Shown: one piece after another, positions 54,968 to 62,796 of the stretch
How positions within the stretch are numbered: position 1 is the first letter of the stretch
Layout of the letters: each line of letters opens with the position of its first letter
DNA from: Pseudotabrizicola algicola
Lineage (GTDB): Bacteria; Pseudomonadota; Alphaproteobacteria; Rhodobacterales; Rhodobacteraceae
Direction: 5' to 3'
Length of the DNA: 64,000 nucleotides
Assembly (NCBI RefSeq): GCF_010915705.1
Contig: NZ_JAAIKE010000002.1
Location: 372,001 to 436,000, forward strand
Position numbers and translations under genes: made by a program
The notes under the pieces: model-generated
What the model saw: the letters and a program-made list of their open reading frames with translations, nothing else
The model's database searches: none
What the model was told of the DNA's origin: nothing

Positions 54968-55873
54968 TTACCAGGCGTCGGGGCCCTTGTCGGCATAACG
55001 ACGCGCCAGAAAATCGATGAAGGCCCTCACCTTGGGCTGGGTGAAGCGGCCCGGCGGGTAGACGGCATAGATGCCCAGAACTTCGGTCGGCAGACCCGGC
55101 AGCGCCTCTTCCACCAGACCGTCCTTCATCGCGTCGGCATAGAGGAAGCTGGGCAGATAGGCGATGCCAAGACCGGAAATCGCAGCGTTCAGAAGCGATT
55201 GCCCGTCATTGACCGTCAGCCAGCCCGCCGTGCGGACCTGCCGCTTTTCGCCCGAGGGCGCGGTGATTTTCCACACGTTGCCGTTGGCCTGATTGGAATA
55301 GTGCAGCAATTTGTGTTCGTTCAGGTCGTCGATCTTCATCGGACGGCCGTAGCGCTGGAAATAGCTGGGCGATGCGATCATCCGCTTGGTGGTGTCGGTC
55401 AGCTTGCGGGCACGCAGGCTGCTGTCTTCCAGATCGCCCACGCGGATGGCCATGTCGAAGCCTTCGCTGATGAGTTCGACATAGCGGTTGTTCAGCACCA
55501 TGTTCACGGTGATATCGGGGTATTCGAGCAGGAAATCCCCCAGAATGGGCGAAAGCAGGTTCACGCCGAAATCTGTCGCCACCGAAATGCGCAGCAGGCC
55601 CGAGGGGGCAGATTGCATGGAGGTGACAAGGGCATCTGCCTCGCCAGCATCGTTGAGAACGCGGCGGGCGCGGTCGTAATAGGCAAGGCCAATTTCCGTG
55701 GGCGATACGCGACGTGTCGTGCGGTTCAAAAGCCGCGCCCCCAAGCGCGCCTCCAGAGCCGAGACATGCTTCGAGACGGCAGATTTGGAAATCCCCATCT
55801 TCTTGGCAGCGTCGGTAAAGCCGCCCTGGTCTACGACCGTGGCAAAGGCTTCCATTTCAGTCAGTCGGTCCAT
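54968..55873 (-). CDS. LysR-type transcriptional regulator
   Basis: DNA-binding regulator, 301 residues. The winged HTH (about residues 2-60) reads MEAFATVVDQGGFTDAAKKM, then SKSAVSKHVSALEARLGARL and RTTRRVSPTE. The effector-binding domain (about 88-290) has RISVATDFGVNLLSPIL and NDGQSLLNAAISGLGIAYLP. The target genes are unknown; it is divergent from the transglutaminase/ATP-grasp cluster across 293 bases, so it may control that cluster, which is inference from position. ATG at 55873 is used; a GTG directly before it is possible. Confidence 0.9.
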   Translation of the reverse strand: MDRLTEMEAFATVVDQGGFTDAAKKMGISKSAVSKHVSALEARLGARLLNRTTRRVSPTEIGLAYYDRARRVLNDAGEADALVTSMQSAPSGLLRISVATDFGVNLLSPILGDFLLEYPDITVNMVLNNRYVELISEGFDMAIRVGDLEDSSLRARKLTDTTKRMIASPSYFQRYGRPMKIDDLNEHKLLHYSNQANGNVWKITAPSGEKRQVRTAGWLTVNDGQSLLNAAISGLGIAYLPSFLYADAMKDGLVEEALPGLPTEVLGIYAVYPPGRFTQPKVRAFIDFLARRYADKGPDAW

Positions 55874-56166
55874 CACTTTTCCCCAGCTGGCAGCTCTATG
55901 GGTTTATCCGCCTGTTAGTGACGCTCAATTCGGGCAGGATCGCGGCGTTGATGCGTTCTATCCGAGGAATTCGGAGGGATCGTTGATGAGGCGGAAACAG
56001 GTGGGGGCGGGTGTTTGTTTGCGCGGCGCCCAAGTTTTGTGCAGAGTTTCGGCTTTCGGGAGAGTTTTGGGCGACATCCGCGCGCAAGACGTGCCATACA
56101 AGGCGATATCCAGACCCAGGCCGCGCCTGCTGTTATTCAGGGCCAGACCTTACGAGAAGTGACCGA

Positions 56167-59100
56167 ATGTCGATCAAGGCCGCGATCCACCATCTGACCC
56201 ATTACAAATACGATCGCCCGGTGACGCTGGGGCCGCAGGTCATCCGCCTGCGCCCTGCCCCGCACAGCCGGACGCGGGTGATTTCCCATTCCCTGAAGGT
56301 CAGCCCGGGCGGGCATTTCGTGAACCATCAGCAGGACCCGTTCGGCAACTGGCTGGCGCGGTTCGTGTTTCCCGAACCGGTGACAGAGTTCAAGATAGAG
56401 GTCGATCTGGTCGCCGACATGACGGTGTACAATCCGTTCGATTTCTTTGTCGAGGAAGCGGCCGAGCATTGGCCGTTCGAATATCCGGCCGATCTGGTCG
56501 AGGATCTGGAGATCTACCGCCGCAAGGACGTGGCGGGGCCGCTGTTGCAGGCGTTTCTTGCGTCGGTGCCGAAGGACCGGGTGCGCAGCGTCGATTTCGT
56601 GGTGAACCTGAATGCGCGGGTGGCCAATACGCTGCGCTATACCATCCGGATGGAGCCGGGCGTGCAGACGCCCGAGGAGACGCTGGGGCTGCAAAGCGGA
56701 TCGTGCCGGGATTCGAGCTGGCTTCTGGTTCAGGCGCTGCGGCATTTCGGTTTTGCGGCGCGCTTTGTGTCGGGCTATCTGATCCAGCTGAAACCGGACC
56801 TGAAGGCGCTGGACGGGCCTTCGGGGACCGAGGTGGATTTCACCGACCTGCACGCATGGTGCGAGGTCTATCTGCCCGGCGCGGGTTGGGTGGGGCTGGA
56901 CCCGACCAGCGGGTTGCTGGCGGGCGAGAGCCATATTCCGCTGGCCGCGACGCCCCATTACCGCAACGCCGCGCCGATTTCGGGCATGGCGAGCTTTGCC
57001 GAGGTGGACTTCGCCTTTGACATGACGGTGGCGCGGGTGGCCGAGCATCCGCGCATCACCAAGCCGTTCAGCGATGAGGCCTGGGAGGAGTTGAACGCGC
57101 TGGGGCAGAAGGTGGATGCCGCGCTGGAGACGGGCGATGTGCGCCTGACGATGGGTGGCGAGCCGACCTTTGTTTCCATTGATGATTTCGAGGCGGACGA
57201 GTGGAACACCGCCGCCGTGGGCCCGACCAAGCGGGTGCTGGCCGACAGGCTGATCCGGCGCTTGCGGGATCGCTTCGCGCCGGGGGGGTTCCTGCATTAC
57301 GGGCAGGGCAAGTGGTATCCGGGGGAGAGCCTGCCGCGCTGGACGTTTTCGCTTTACTGGCGGACCGACGGGCATCCGATCTGGTCGGACCCTGCGCTGA
57401 TCGCCGAAGAAGGCGCGCAGACGGGGGTGACGACAGCGGATGCGGAACGGCTGCTCCGGCAGATCGCGGATGATCTGGCGCTGGAGCCGGAGTGCATTCT
57501 GCCCGCCTATGAAGACCCCGCGCAATGGCTGGTGAAAGAGGCGAACCTGCCCGACAACGTGACGCCCGCCAATTCAAAGCTGAAGGACCCCGAGGAGCGG
57601 CACCGTCTGGCCACCGTGTTCAATCGCGGGCTGACCAACCCTTCGGGCTTTGTGCTGCCGGTGCAAAGCTGGCAAAGCCGCGCGTCGGGGCGGCGGTGGC
57701 GCACCGAGAAGTGGCGGCTGCGGCGCGGGCATATGTTCCTTGTGCCGGGGGACAGTCCGGTGGGATACCGTTTGCCGCTGGAAAGCCTGCCGTGGCTGCC
57801 TGCGTCGCAATACCCCTACATCAATCCGGTGGACCCGACGGTGGAGCGCCCGCCCCTGCCGGTGCCAAACAGCCCGGAAGTGACGGAGTCGCGCCCGCAA
57901 GCCTCGGCCAGTTTTACGGCCAGCGGGGCGCAGGGCGCGCAGGTGGAACAGGGATCGCCCGCCTTCGAGGTGGACGGGCATATCCGCACTGCCCTGTCGG
58001 TGGAACCGCGCGACGGGCGGCTGTGCGTGTTCATGCCGCCGGTGGTGTCGGTCGAGGATTATCTCGATCTGGTGCGCGCGGCGGAGGCTGCCGCGAAGAA
58101 ACTGGGGCTTCAGGTGCATATCGAGGGCTATGCGCCGCCGCATGATCCGCGCCTGAACGTGATCCGCGTGGCCCCCGATCCGGGGGTGATCGAGGTGAAC
58201 GTGCATCCGGCGCAGAACTGGCAGGAGTGCGTGGACATCACGAGCGCGATCTATGAGGAGGCGCGGCTCTGCCGCCTTGGCGCCGACAAGTTCATGATCG
58301 ACGGCAAGCACGCCGGAACGGGAGGCGGCAACCATGTGGTGGTCGGCGGGGCGACGCCGAATGACAGCCCCTTCCTGCGGCGGCCAGACCTGTTGCGCAG
58401 CCTGATCCTGCACTGGAACCGGCACCCGTCGCTGTCTTACCTGTTCTCGGGGCTGTTCATCGGGCCGACATCACAGGCCCCGCGCATCGACGAGGCGCGG
58501 CATGATGCGCTCTATGAGATGGAGATCGCGCTGGCGCAGATCCCCGCGCCGGGCGAAGGCACCCCGCCGATGCCGTGGCTGGTGGACCGTTTGCTGCGCA
58601 ACATGCTGACGGATGTGACGGGCAACACCCATCGCGCCGAGATTTGCATCGACAAGCTGTATTCCCCCGACGGGCCGACGGGGCGTCTGGGTCTGGTCGA
58701 GTTCCGCGGGTTCGAGATGCCGCCGGATGCGCGCATGAGCCTGTCGCAGCAATTGCTGATCCGGGCGCTGATCGCGCGGTTCTGGGCCAACCCGGCCAAG
58801 GGGGAGCTGACCCGCTGGGGCACGGCCCTGCATGACCGTTTCATGCTGCCGCATCACGTCTGGCAGGATTTCCGCGACGTGCTGGCCGATCTGGCGCAGC
58901 ACGGGTTTCCGCTGCGCGAGGACTGGTTCAAGGCGCAGGCCGAGTTCCGCTTTCCGTTCTGCGGCGAGGTCGAATACGAGGGCGTGCATCTGGAATTGCG
59001 GCAGGCGCTGGAGCCTTGGCATGTGCTGGGCGAGACCGGCGCGATTGGCGGCACGGTGCGCTATACCGACAGTTCGACCGAGCGGCTTCAGGTCAAGCTG

Positions 59101-59499
59101 CGCGCGCCCGACCCGACCCGTTATCAGGTGCTGTGCAACGGGCGCGTTGCCCCGCTGACGTCGGTGGGTGCGGGCGAAGCGGTGGCGGGTGTGCGCTACA
59201 AGGCGTGGCAGCCGTCATCCGCGATGCACCCCGTGCTGCCGGTCGATGCGCCGCTGGCCTTCGACATCTTCGACACATGGTCAGGGCGGCCCTTGGGCGG
59301 CTGCGTCTATCATGTGGCGCATCCGGGCGGGCGCAATTACGACACCTTCCCGGTGAACGGCAACGAGGCCGAGGCGCGCCGCCTTGCACGGTTCGAGCCG
59401 AACGGGCATCGGCCCGGGCATCATGTGCGCCCGCAGGCCGAGCGCCCGCACCGCGAGTTTCCGCTGACCCTTGACCTGCGGCGGCCGATCGGGCTGTAG
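56167..59499 (+). CDS. Transglutaminase fused to DUF2126 putative amidoligase
   Basis: Very large protein of 1110 residues. The amino-terminal part (about 1-310) is a bacterial transglutaminase-like domain with its N-terminal beta domain ([20 protein letters not shown]) and the Cys-His-Asp triad: C180 in [10 protein letters not shown]229 in DLHAWCEVY and D245 in GLDPTSG. The rest is DUF2126, a predicted amidoligase of the glutamine-synthetase-like kind ([61 protein letters not shown]). The two activities may form or remodel an amide bond in an unknown peptide. No signal peptide is seen. The ATP-grasp/alpha-E gene starts seven bases after its stop. Confidence 0.88.
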
Positions 59500-59506
59500 T
59501 CCGGCG

Positions 59507-61915
59507 ATGGACAGCACCGGGACGGCAAAGGCAGCGACAGGCAGGCCGGGCAAGACGCGGGATCGCGGGTTGTCCGCCTATCGGGCCTTGCCGGGGGTGC
59601 CAGACGAGTTGGTGACTGCCGATGGCTCTTTGCGGCCTTTGTGGCAGCCGCTGGTCGCGCATCTGCAATCGCTGTCGGATGATGCCCTGACCCGCGCCAC
59701 AGGGCGGGCGGACCAGTACCTGCGCGATTCCGGCGTGTTTTATCGCCAATACGGGTCCGGCCAGTCGGTCGAGCGGCCTTGGCCGCTGAGCCATGTGCCG
59801 GTGCTGATCCACGAGGCGGATTGGGCCGAGCTGGCCCCCGCGCTGATCCAGCGGGCCGACCTGCTGGAAGCGGTGATGGCCGATCTGTATGGCGAGAACC
59901 GGCTGGTGGCCGACGGGCATCTGCCCGCCGCGCTGGTCGCGGGCAATCCGGAATGGCTGCGGCCCTTGGTGGGGGTGCGTCCGGCCTCGGGGCATTTCCT
60001 GCATTTTCTGGCCTTTGAAATCGGGCGGGGGCCGGACGGGCGCTGGTGGGTGCTGGCCGACCGCACGCAAGCGCCTTCGGGTGCAGGTTACGCGCTGGAA
60101 AACCGCGTGGCGACCGCACGGGCCTATTCCGATGTGTTTGACGCGCTGAACGTGCATCGGCTGGCCGGATTTTTCCGCGATTTCCGCGATGCGCTGCTGG
60201 GTCTGCGCGGCGCGCGCGACGGGCGCGTGGCGATCATGACACCGGGGCCTCTGAACGAGACCTATTTCGAGCAGGCGTGGATCGCGCGCTATATGGGCGT
60301 GAGCCTTGTCGAGGGAGAGGACCTGACGGTTGCCGACGGGCGGCTGATGGTGCGGACCGTGTCGGGGTTGCGGCCGCTGGATGTGCTGTGGCGGCGGCTG
60401 GATGGCAGCTATGCCGACCCGCTGGAACTGGACCCTGCCTCGCGCATCGGCACGCCGGGCATGGTGGCGGCGCTGCGGCAGGGCGGGCTGACCATGGTCA
60501 ACTCGCTCGGCTCGGGCGTGCTCGAGACGCGGGCGCTGATGGCCTTTTTGCCGAGCCTGTCGCTGCACCTGACAGGCGCGCCGCTGGCGATTCCGAACAT
60601 CGCCACATGGTGGTGCGGCGGGGCGGCGGAGCGGGCGCAGGTGATGGCGGCGCAGGACCGTCTGGTGCTGTCGGCGGCGCTGGGCACAGGCTTGCCCTTT
60701 GACAGGCAGGGTGAAAGCACGGCGGCGGCAACACTGGCCCCCGAGGCGCTGGCCGCGCGGCTTGCGACGCAGGGGGCGGACCTTGTGGCGCAAGAGGCGG
60801 TGACACTGTCGACCACGCCCGCGCTGATCGACGGGCAGATCGTGCCGCGCCCGATGAGCCTGCGGGTGTTTCTGGCACGCACCGCCGCAGGGTGGCAGGT
60901 GATGCAGGGCGGCTTTGCCCGCATCGGTGCATCACAGGACCCGACCGCGCTGGCCATGCAGCGCGGCGGCAGCGCGGCGGATGTCTGGATCGTCAGCAAG
61001 GACGAGGTGCCCGCCGTCAGCATGGTTGCGCCGGCCGAGCCCTATCTGCGCAGCACGCCGGGGGCGCTTCCCGCGCGGGCGGCGGACAACCTGTTCTGGC
61101 TGGGCCGCTATGTGGAGCGGACCGAGGGCATCATCCGGCTGCTCCGCGCGCGACACAACCGCTTGGCCGAAGGCGGGCGGGCGGCGCTGCCGCTGCAGAG
61201 GCAGATGGATGCGCTGCTGGCGACCTATGATGTGGATGGCGCGGCCGGGCTGTCGCCGGGGTTGCTGACCACGCTGGGCGCGGCGGTGGCCACCGCAGGG
61301 CAGGTGCGCGACCGCTTTTCGCCCGATGGCTGGTCGGCGCTGAACGATCTGGACAAGACCGCGCGGCGGATGGCCGGGCAGGTGGAACCGGGTGATGATG
61401 CCGCGCGGGCTCTGTCTGCCCTGCTGCGCAAACTGGCGGGGTTCTCGGGGCTGGTGCATGAGAACATGTATCGCTTTTTCGGCTGGCGGTTCCTGTCGAT
61501 CGGGCGGCAACTCGAACGCGCCCTGGCGATGTGCGGAGCCTTGGCGGTATTTGCCGACGAGAAGGCACCTGTGGGCGGTCTGGACCTGTGCATCGAGCTT
61601 GGCGACAGCGTGCTGACGCATCGCCGCCGCTTCAGCGTGGGATCGTCCCGCGAGACCGTGATTGACCTTCTGGCGCTGGACCCGATGAACCCGCGTTCGC
61701 TGCGGCACCTCATCGACGGTCTGAGCGCGCAGGTGCAGGCGCTGCCGGGGGCGGCGACACATGGCCAGTTGTCCGAACTGGGCCGCGCGATGCTGCGCAC
61801 GCAGGTGGAGATTGCGACGGCCACGCCGGAGACGCTGACGACCGAGAGCTTGCAGGCCTTGCGGGGCAATCTGGCGGCGATCTCGGACCTGCTGACCGGA
61901 GCCTACTTGCGATGA
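59507..61915 (+). CDS. Circularly permuted ATP-grasp fused to alpha-E domain
   Basis: Protein of 802 residues. The first part (about 60-480) is a circularly permuted ATP-grasp ligase (DUF404/407 type): DSGVFYRQYGSGQSVERPWP, the ADLYGENRLVADGHLP block and VNSLGSGVLETRALMAFLPS. The C-terminal part (about 520-800) is the alpha-E helical domain: PARAADNLFWLGRYVERTEG, LVHENMYRFFGWRFLSIGRQ, ending EIATATPETLTTESLQALRG. ATG at 59507 starts the protein; the family starts variably. A transglutaminase gene follows, with its start inside this gene's stop (ATGA). Confidence 0.88.
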   Translation: MDSTGTAKAATGRPGKTRDRGLSAYRALPGVPDELVTADGSLRPLWQPLVAHLQSLSDDALTRATGRADQYLRDSGVFYRQYGSGQSVERPWPLSHVPVLIHEADWAELAPALIQRADLLEAVMADLYGENRLVADGHLPAALVAGNPEWLRPLVGVRPASGHFLHFLAFEIGRGPDGRWWVLADRTQAPSGAGYALENRVATARAYSDVFDALNVHRLAGFFRDFRDALLGLRGARDGRVAIMTPGPLNETYFEQAWIARYMGVSLVEGEDLTVADGRLMVRTVSGLRPLDVLWRRLDGSYADPLELDPASRIGTPGMVAALRQGGLTMVNSLGSGVLETRALMAFLPSLSLHLTGAPLAIPNIATWWCGGAAERAQVMAAQDRLVLSAALGTGLPFDRQGESTAAATLAPEALAARLATQGADLVAQEAVTLSTTPALIDGQIVPRPMSLRVFLARTAAGWQVMQGGFARIGASQDPTALAMQRGGSAADVWIVSKDEVPAVSMVAPAEPYLRSTPGALPARAADNLFWLGRYVERTEGIIRLLRARHNRLAEGGRAALPLQRQMDALLATYDVDGAAGLSPGLLTTLGAAVATAGQVRDRFSPDGWSALNDLDKTARRMAGQVEPGDDAARALSALLRKLAGFSGLVHENMYRFFGWRFLSIGRQLERALAMCGALAVFADEKAPVGGLDLCIELGDSVLTHRRRFSVGSSRETVIDLLALDPMNPRSLRHLIDGLSAQVQALPGAATHGQLSELGRAMLRTQVEIATATPETLTTESLQALRGNLAAISDLLTGAYLR

Positions 61916-62796
61916 CGCTTTATGCCCTGCGGCAGACGATCCGCTATGACTTCAACCGCCCGACCGGGGCTGGGCGGCAGTTGTTCCGCATTCTGCCCGC
62001 CGATATTCCGGGGGTGCAGCGCGTGCGGGACGTGCATTACGACTTTGCCCCCGAGGTGGGCGAGCGCGGCACGTTCCGCGATTTCTTCGGCACCCGCGTG
62101 ATCGAAGCCGCGATGCCGCCGGGACTGGTCAGTCTGGACCTGACGATGCAGGCGGTGGTGGAACGGGCGGTGGATGACAGCCTGCTGGATCTGTCGCCGC
62201 CGCTGGAAGGTCTGGCCGCCGAGGTGGCGGCCTGTCGTGGCGTCGGGCCGGACTCGCCGCATCATTTCACGCAACCCTCGCGCCGGATTGCCGCCGCGCC
62301 GCGCATTGCCGATTTTGCCCGCGCCCATGCTGCCGCGGGGTTGACCGTGCGCGGGTTGGTCGAGGCGCTGGGGCGCGCGGTTCATGCGCATATGGCGTTC
62401 GATGCCGAGGCCACCCATGTGGACACCGCGCCAGAGGCGGCCTTTGCCCTGCAACGCGGGGTCTGTCAGGATTTCGCGCAGATCATGGTGGGGGGATTGC
62501 GCGCGCTGGGGGTGCCTGCGGCCTATGTGGCGGGCTATCTGCGCACCCTGCCGCCACCGGGGCAACCGCGCCTGATCGGCGCGGATGCCATGCATGCCTG
62601 GGTGCGGGCCTGGGCGGGGGCGGAAACGGGCTGGATCGATTACGACCCGACCAATGCCTGCTTTGTCCGCAATGACCACATCGACGTGGGTTTTGGACGC
62701 GATTATGACGATGTGGCCCCTGTCACGGGCCGGCTGCGGCTGGACGGACACCACTCCGGCAGCCACAGCGTCGATATCGAGGAAATCGCCGCCTAG
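61912..62796 (+). CDS. Transglutaminase-like cysteine peptidase/transferase
   Basis: Stand-alone transglutaminase-fold protein of 294 residues with the same Cys-His-Asp triad: C185 in GVCQDFAQIM, H228 in AMHAWVRAW and D245 in YDPTNACF. The amino-terminal part (about 1-100) is the family beta domain (YALRQTIRYDFNRPTGAG). It has no signal peptide, so it is probably cytoplasmic. Coupled to the ATP-grasp/alpha-E gene. The bacterial proteasome-like Anbu gene that accompanies this set in many genomes is not found next to it here; the neighbour is a convergent aldehyde dehydrogenase. Confidence 0.87.
   Translation: MTLYALRQTIRYDFNRPTGAGRQLFRILPADIPGVQRVRDVHYDFAPEVGERGTFRDFFGTRVIEAAMPPGLVSLDLTMQAVVERAVDDSLLDLSPPLEGLAAEVAACRGVGPDSPHHFTQPSRRIAAAPRIADFARAHAAAGLTVRGLVEALGRAVHAHMAFDAEATHVDTAPEAAFALQRGVCQDFAQIMVGGLRALGVPAAYVAGYLRTLPPPGQPRLIGADAMHAWVRAWAGAETGWIDYDPTNACFVRNDHIDVGFGRDYDDVAPVTGRLRLDGHHSGSHSVDIEEIAA

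Follow-up and report, generated by a model that had tools for sequence, protein, structure and literature searches.

A DUF2126 gene cluster of Pseudotabrizicola algicola carries a degenerate fused ATP-grasp and may be an accessory module of an ATP-grasp/alpha-E ligase core encoded at a separate Anbu locus

The 64,000-nucleotide stretch of Pseudotabrizicola algicola DNA analysed here (contig NZ_JAAIKE010000002.1, positions 372,001 to 436,000; called the window, with coordinates counted from its first letter) contains at 56167-62796 three coupled genes on the + strand, which a sequence-only reading had described as a transglutaminase-DUF2126 fusion, a circularly permuted (CP) ATP-grasp fused to an alpha-E domain, and a second transglutaminase. 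A Pfam search run on the longest frames of the three genes bore out these domain calls and the lengths, the DUF2126, CP-ATP-grasp, alpha-E and transglutaminase profiles all being assigned. Gene 1 (TGD, 56167-59499, 1110 amino acids (aa)) matched Bact_transglu_N (E 1e-28), Transglut_core (E 2e-15) and DUF2126 (1330 bits, cut-off 27). Its transglutaminase-like domain, at about 56182-56904, contains Cys180, His229 and Asp245, and its DUF2126 putative amidoligase domain (PF09899, with PF01841 and PF08379 in the same protein) lies at 56998-59481. The locus is therefore a DUF2126 set as defined by PF09899 above its cut-off and a transglutaminase core in one protein, and it has in addition, in conserved order, a downstream CP_ATPgrasp_2-Alpha-E fusion and a second transglutaminase. 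The fusion, gene 2 (AGE, 59507-61915, 802 aa; CP_ATPgrasp_2 423 bits, Alpha-E 181 bits), has its ATP-grasp at 59798-60925 and its alpha-E domain at 61067-61909. Gene 3 (TG3, 61912-62796, 294 aa) matched Transglut_core (E 2e-15) and Bact_transglu_N (E 1e-10), with Cys185, His228 and Asp245. A gap of 7 bp separates TGD from AGE, and the AGE stop overlaps the TG3 start (ATGA). No NCBIfam model matched TGD, AGE or TG3 at E 0.001.

The Cys-His-Asp triad was intact in all 81 TGD sequences compared; in TG3, the Cys and the His were kept in 71/71 and the Asp in 70/71 (one gap). In DUF2126, E332, E345, E676, N678, H723, E845, R847 and E850 were invariant in 81/81 sequences, which speaks for an enzyme. 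Iyer et al. reportedly claimed a glutamine-synthetase fold for this domain in 2009. When the predicted model of TGD (pLDDT 77.7) was compared with solved structures by Foldseek, gamma-glutamylmethylamide synthetase and other glutamine synthetases were retrieved at E 0.026-0.09 (probability up to 0.96, alignment range unspecified), a weak hint that DUF2126 is glutamine-synthetase-like. By sequence search, the solved matches to gene 1 fell only in its transglutaminase part.

The predicted model of AGE (pLDDT 87.9) had as its best matches in the PDB 3n6x (Foldseek E 8e-29), glutathione synthetases and glutathionylspermidine synthetase; no significant solved match to its alpha-E part was present in the Foldseek list (rows 38-50, E 0.23 or more). 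In glutathione and glutathionylspermidine synthetases, an E-x-N motif holds magnesium, and a lysine and a Gly-rich loop hold ATP. On alignment, AGE was found to have A184-D185-R186 (60056-60064, + strand) in place of the E-D-N that is present both in 3n6x and in a stand-alone ATP-grasp encoded on another contig of this genome, C24. It also has S389 (60671-60673, + strand) in place of the Lys that both proteins have ahead of the Gly-rich loop, a loop that is itself degenerate in AGE. AGE thus lacks the E-x-N motif and the Lys that go with a catalytic ATP-grasp in its stand-alone relatives, and has their Gly-rich loop in degenerate form.

This was a general property of the fused proteins. The corresponding residues E156, N158 and K364 (numbering of the stand-alone ATP-grasp P0002) were invariant in 39/39 stand-alone sequences, which were taken from 42 loci with score as the sole criterion (38 distinct; 30 were the best-scoring class matches). 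Since this first set leaned to close relatives, 20 divergent stand-alone ATP-grasps (49-56% identity to P0002) were added, and all 20 kept E, N and K. Among 82 fused AGE sequences, none kept all three residues and 75 kept none; the Asn was lost in all 82, the E being kept in one and the K in six. These 82 (73 from the 81 named and own loci, nine from plasmid records) were found with the window AGE as query at more than 250 bits, and fused forms with an intact site may be under-sampled. Eight named loci gave no AGE, of which L081, L097, L101 and L120 were short or cut near the gene. Seven fused AGE-like proteins, each with an alpha-E part, came from class genomes without DUF2126 (G012, G044, G057, G073, G190, G247 and G285; L245-L251), all of which have a stand-alone ATP-grasp; none of the seven kept any of the three residues, indicating that the loss accompanies the fusion. 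AGE thus retains its fold, as the predicted model shows, but has probably lost carboxylate activation. The working ligase role that had been implied for the fused ATP-grasp is contradicted by this loss of conserved residues.

An alignment of gene 1, used as query against named genomes, matched at least 593 encoding stretches, of which the best 80, nearly all alphaproteobacterial, were kept. DUF2126 was present in 50/149 genomes of a family sample and in 44/289 genomes of a class sample (289 genomes of a larger group), so that such sets are common. The order TGD-AGE-TG3 was kept in 68 of the 72 loci (71 named and this genome) that have 5 kb or more of downstream sequence, which shows that the cluster is not a chance assembly. 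In four named loci neither AGE nor TG3 was matched, although 10 kb of downstream sequence was available: those of Boseongicola (L090), Mangrovicella (L105), Lichenibacterium (L126) and a Rhizobiales metagenome-assembled genome (MAG; L073). When the first three were searched genome-wide, each gave no AGE match and a single ATP-grasp of the stand-alone type (544-560 bits).

Neighbour clustering with crude frame calls brought out no conserved fourth gene adjoining the cluster in the named loci; as this greedy open-reading-frame clustering was blurred by antisense frames, partners were counted by tblastn. As had been stated, no Anbu was found in either flank in the window, but the same holds for the relatives: none of the 80 named loci had an Anbu match (flanks to 10 kb where contigs allow), and its absence is therefore not distinctive. 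The divergent LysR-type regulator pointed out in the sequence-only reading is real (54968-55876, - strand), but a homologue was divergent and adjacent in only 2/81 loci, those of this genome and its closest relative, and we rejected it as a dedicated regulator for this reason. A role in anti-phage defence was also rejected: the three proteins had no PADLOC match at E 0.01, and no DUF2126 match was found in 50,697 phage records.

A search of the whole genome for Anbu, as had been proposed, gave a single match, and this lies on contig C24 (G000:C24, 252719-253441, 241 aa); Anbu is thus missing at the window locus and present in the organism. PF00227 had one further match in the genome, on C27. 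One strand of C24 encodes a CP-ATP-grasp of 470 aa, an alpha-E protein of 316 aa, a transglutaminase and Anbu, with a 222-aa open frame between the last two, so that an Anbu operon is found at this separate locus and not in the window. The 222-aa frame (L006:5532-6200, on C24) has a hydrophobic stretch near its C-terminus, as seen by eye, and has no counterpart in the four-gene Anbu operon of PMC6376114 (this and the other published studies are cited from excerpts). At E 0.001 the genome contains two CP_ATPgrasp_2 genes, two alpha-E domains (one each per locus) and three transglutaminase cores, and its only intact CP-ATP-grasp is the one that adjoins Anbu on C24.

In the class sample, an intact ATP-grasp (best match to P0002 above 400 bits, plus one contig-edge match of 62% identity in G127, among the matches listed) was present in 41/44 genomes with DUF2126 versus 65/245 others (Fisher p 1.9e-17). 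Anbu, searched with one protein at E 1e-8 so that divergent forms could escape, was present in 32/44 versus 49/245 (p 1.7e-11). Yet among the 106 genomes with an intact ATP-grasp, Anbu was found in 30/41 with and 49/65 without DUF2126 (p 0.82). Anbu is therefore independent of DUF2126 once ATP-grasp is given, and the association of the two is accounted for by the ATP-grasp that they share. DUF2126 and Anbu appear to be separate additions to a single ligase core. Anbu lay within 12 kb of TGD on the same contig in 4 of the 32 Anbu carriers (4/44 DUF2126 genomes: G025, G091, G160 and G255), a lower bound because contigs are broken. Beyond the class sample, a stand-alone ATP-grasp was found within about 4 kb of TGD in 14 of 17 plasmid-record loci, the others being those of Granulicella (L150), Azospirillum (L151) and one Caballeronia (L215); these 17 were chosen for organism spread from 25 plasmid records matching the DUF2126 query. 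In the phylum of L139 (titled Nitrospirales MAG), CP-ATP-grasp was present in 38/148 genomes and the fused AGE in 3/148 (frames of 863-888 aa), all three also having the stand-alone type within about 5 kb; one of the three is the centre genome, chosen for having the cluster.

Expression data from relatives point to nitrogen limitation as the setting. In Burkholderia cenocepacia, sigma54 and NtrC share I35_5080-83 among their targets, and a mutant of ntrC showed changes of -8.2, -9.4, -9.4 and -6.0 in these genes (PMC5491218). The gene order in the B. cenocepacia record (L143) is ATP-grasp, alpha-E, transglutaminase, TGD, AGE, TG3, which makes TGD the most likely identity of the 'large protein' I35_5083. 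On nitrate versus ammonium, the Pseudomonas putida genes for Anbu and ATP-grasp, PP_2685 and PP_2688, were up by log2 4.4 and 4.0, and urea and nitrate uptake genes rose together with them (PMC8050072); PP2685-2687 were up as well in PMC3325844. Bact_transglu_N, DUF403, DUF404 and DUF407 were associated with urea metabolism domains in marine metagenomes (PMC3597751). For 13 of the 17 plasmid-record loci, we examined the 250 bp ahead of the operon start (in Acidithiobacillus caldus, ahead of the ATP-grasp gene) and found a sigma54-like -24/-12 site, at 9/11 or better, in 12 of the 13 regions versus 2.1% of random windows. The sites were present in Burkholderia (4/4), Caballeronia (7/7) and A. 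caldus, and absent from Enterobacter; their distance upstream is about 70-80 bp in Burkholderia and A. caldus, and about 210-240 bp in Caballeronia. For P. algicola itself, control by nitrogen would be an extrapolation from these relatives.

The plasmid records also held several observations in their own right. On the A. caldus megaplasmid mpAca1.1 (L148, 579-15171), ntrC and glnL are neighbours of two Anbu matches, in a region that also contains a TGD split in two, an alpha-E and a stand-alone ATP-grasp that is preceded, 68 bp upstream, by a sigma54-like site; this ntrC may adjoin a system that NtrC controls. In L141, L142, L213 and L216, an annotated, divergent putative zinc metallopeptidase gene, a possible extra component, lies between alpha-E and TGD, and in all seven scanned Caballeronia loci (three of them unannotated) the sigma54-like site, of 9-10/11, is directed away from TGD. 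Caballeronia sp. Lep1P3 (L141:11528-12574) has AGE fragments only, TG3 not being found, and keeps TGD and the stand-alone ATP-grasp/alpha-E pair; it seems to be another case where AGE is dispensable. The 90-kb IncFII plasmid p1_120063 of Enterobacter roggenkampii (L147, 6769-15960) has a five-gene set (ATP-grasp, alpha-E, TGD, AGE, TG) among insertion sequence (IS) elements and near arsC, a location that suggests mobility. Among the class genomes, one DUF2126 match (G264:C20:45560-48019) carries an in-frame TAG.

Since its own ATP-grasp has lost residues that the stand-alone relatives keep, the window set would be an add-on rather than an independent system. We propose an amide ligase/hydrolase system of nitrogen limitation in which the window encodes the DUF2126 module and the C24 operon the shared ATP-grasp core, a proposal that we regard as evenly poised between right and wrong. 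In more general terms, the fused AGE of DUF2126 clusters would be a pseudo-ligase, the DUF2126 module and Anbu would be alternative accessories to one nitrogen-controlled ATP-grasp/alpha-E core, and the one intact ATP-grasp of C24 would serve both loci; this we think has an even chance of being correct. The system would have two parts and both make and cleave amide bonds, presumably in the cytoplasm. Its working ATP-grasp ligase would come from the ATP-grasp/alpha-E/transglutaminase/Anbu operon of C24. TGD would contribute a second candidate amide ligase (DUF2126, proposed to be glutamine-synthetase-like) joined to a cysteine amidase or transamidase, TG3 a second cysteine amidase or transamidase, and AGE a scaffold or a substrate-holding partner of the intact ATP-grasp/alpha-E pair. 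The core would couple a carboxylate to an amine or a peptide, DUF2126 would extend or re-ligate the core's product, and the transglutaminase-fold proteins, with Anbu where present, would cut it so that nitrogen is stored, scavenged or routed. The physical partnership, the order of the steps and the product are what we infer for such a two-locus system. One stand-alone ATP-grasp is described in print as releasing phosphate from ATP.

A number of observations weigh against this proposal. The two loci are unlinked in most of the class genomes sampled, an ATP-grasp lying within 12 kb of TGD in only 7/41, and the co-occurrence statistics ignore shared ancestry. Three DUF2126 genomes have no intact ATP-grasp, G099 (84% complete), G255 (63%) and G264 (100%); in the last, TGD, AGE and Anbu are present and no stand-alone-type ATP-grasp was found. 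A published pull-down gave no specific complex among the Anbu-operon proteins (PMC6376114, in excerpt). AGE still has the conserved D157, R172, R271, D279, R426 and D464, and with many conserved residues kept, some binding of nucleotide or substrate is possible; the magnesium- and ATP-holding roles of the lost residues are those of the known synthetases, not taken from coordinates. The seven class genomes listed above with a fused AGE-like protein and no DUF2126 indicate that AGE is not exclusive to the DUF2126 module. As to the fold of DUF2126, unrelated chains, including toxins, were retrieved at similar Foldseek E (with low probability) beside the glutamine synthetases, and a profile comparison of DUF2126 with glutamine synthetase (hhalign) was not significant (E 0.085, probability 0.7%). 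Three of the sigma54-like sites had already been seen before the promoter test on plasmid records was framed, and the matches are homologous within genera, so that they stand for about three lineages; at 10/11, the 17 plasmid-record loci gave 7 sites versus 3.5 expected, with a maximum of 6 in 20 shuffles. Among 79 upstream regions (78 named and this genome), mostly alphaproteobacterial, seven reached score 9, against 2.4 expected and 1 for the reverse strand; the position of these sites varied, and the region upstream of the window cluster was not among the 22/79 with score 8 or more. With counts near background, a sigma54 promoter was rejected for the alphaproteobacterial set.

We considered the possibility that the window genes make a product of their own, AGE ligating by means of altered residues, and that the Anbu operon is a separate, paralogous system. 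The three-gene order kept in 68/72 loci and the scarcity of linked stand-alone ATP-grasps (7/41 class genomes within 12 kb) would fit such a pathway, as would the fold and the part of the conserved pocket kept by AGE, in which the nearby acids D185 and E171 could hold a metal. Yet E, N and K are all lost in 75/82 AGE and all three kept in none, 41/44 DUF2126 genomes keep an intact ATP-grasp, and three genomes have TGD and an intact ATP-grasp with no AGE match, making this possibility unlikely. Another purpose might be amine catabolism by temporary amidation in the style of glutathionylspermidine or gamma-glutamyl-amines, the ligases capping an amine that serves as nitrogen source and the transglutaminase-fold amidases freeing it. 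The matches of the AGE model to glutathionylspermidine synthetase/amidase and, weakly, of the TGD model to gamma-glutamylmethylamide synthetase (E 0.026) point in this direction, together with the nitrogen-limitation control in relatives and the genes annotated as amidases that Caballeronia and A. caldus have close to the cluster. However, fold matches do not fix substrates, and in the crude clustering the neighbours of the alphaproteobacterial cluster included no conspicuous oxidase, transporter or amine gene; we consider this explanation rather doubtful.

The product could also be a tagged protein, if the ligases mark proteins with a peptide, and Anbu or the transglutaminases then strip off this tag or degrade the tagged protein. 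This is the published hypothesis for the Anbu operon (PMC5666114, PMC6376114, in excerpt), and the set does combine ligase folds with Cys hydrolase folds. On the other hand, Anbu occurs independently of DUF2126 once ATP-grasp is given, no conserved small tag gene stood out in neighbour clustering (crude frames of at least 60 aa, which a short peptide could escape), and one study detected no Anbu peptidase or amidase activity (PMC6376114, in excerpt). Tagging thus seems improbable to us. If the window set is indeed a module of the Anbu ligase core, experiments on either locus alone may miss a part; in the Anbu tests of PMC6376114, neither peptidase activity nor a specific complex was detected.

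The cluster had been put forward as the best candidate in the window for an undescribed system, and 'undescribed' is too strong: Pfam names DUF2126 a putative amidoligase, and related sets have been described in print. The part of that claim that stands concerns the product, since the literature consulted names none; our search found no paper naming 'DUF2126' or a product of the set in the texts available. The window set has the same domain types as the transglutaminase/DUF2126/CP-ATP-grasp/alpha-E sets of Iyer et al. 2009, among them the DUF2126 that Pfam names a putative amidoligase, and is not known to differ from them in architecture. Papers citing Iyer et al. 2009 (including PMC5666114, PMC6376114 and PMC3597751) describe related sets as peptide synthesis or modification systems. 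The cluster is of a known, predicted and widespread kind. What would be new, judged by those citing papers, is the combination of a degenerate ATP-grasp and a shared core. We take the mycobacterial protein Rv2569c to be the transglutaminase of such a set. Serine-protease activity has been reported for Rv2569c (PMC11081392, 2024, in excerpt).

With the Anbu operon, the window set shares homologous ATP-grasp, alpha-E and transglutaminase parts; unlike it, the window set has DUF2126, a second transglutaminase, a fused alpha-E domain and a degenerate ATP-grasp, and no Anbu. The transglutaminase-like protein 3isr of Cytophaga hutchinsonii, a putative cysteine protease according to its depositors, matches the gene 1 model (Foldseek E 7e-13) and the gene 3 profile (E 1e-21), but is a protein of 293 aa without a DUF2126 part. 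RloABC/RimBK of Pseudomonas resemble the window set in that a single operon encodes an ATP-grasp and partners that are transglutaminase-like or proteases, and have as features of their own a RimK-like ATP-grasp, a membrane-bound inactive transglutaminase and a secreted aspartic protease (PMC12239564, in excerpt). Finally, AGE shares the circularly permuted ATP-grasp fold of the glutathione and glutathionylspermidine synthetases (3n6x), from which it differs by the loss of the E-x-N and Lys positions and by its added alpha-E domain.

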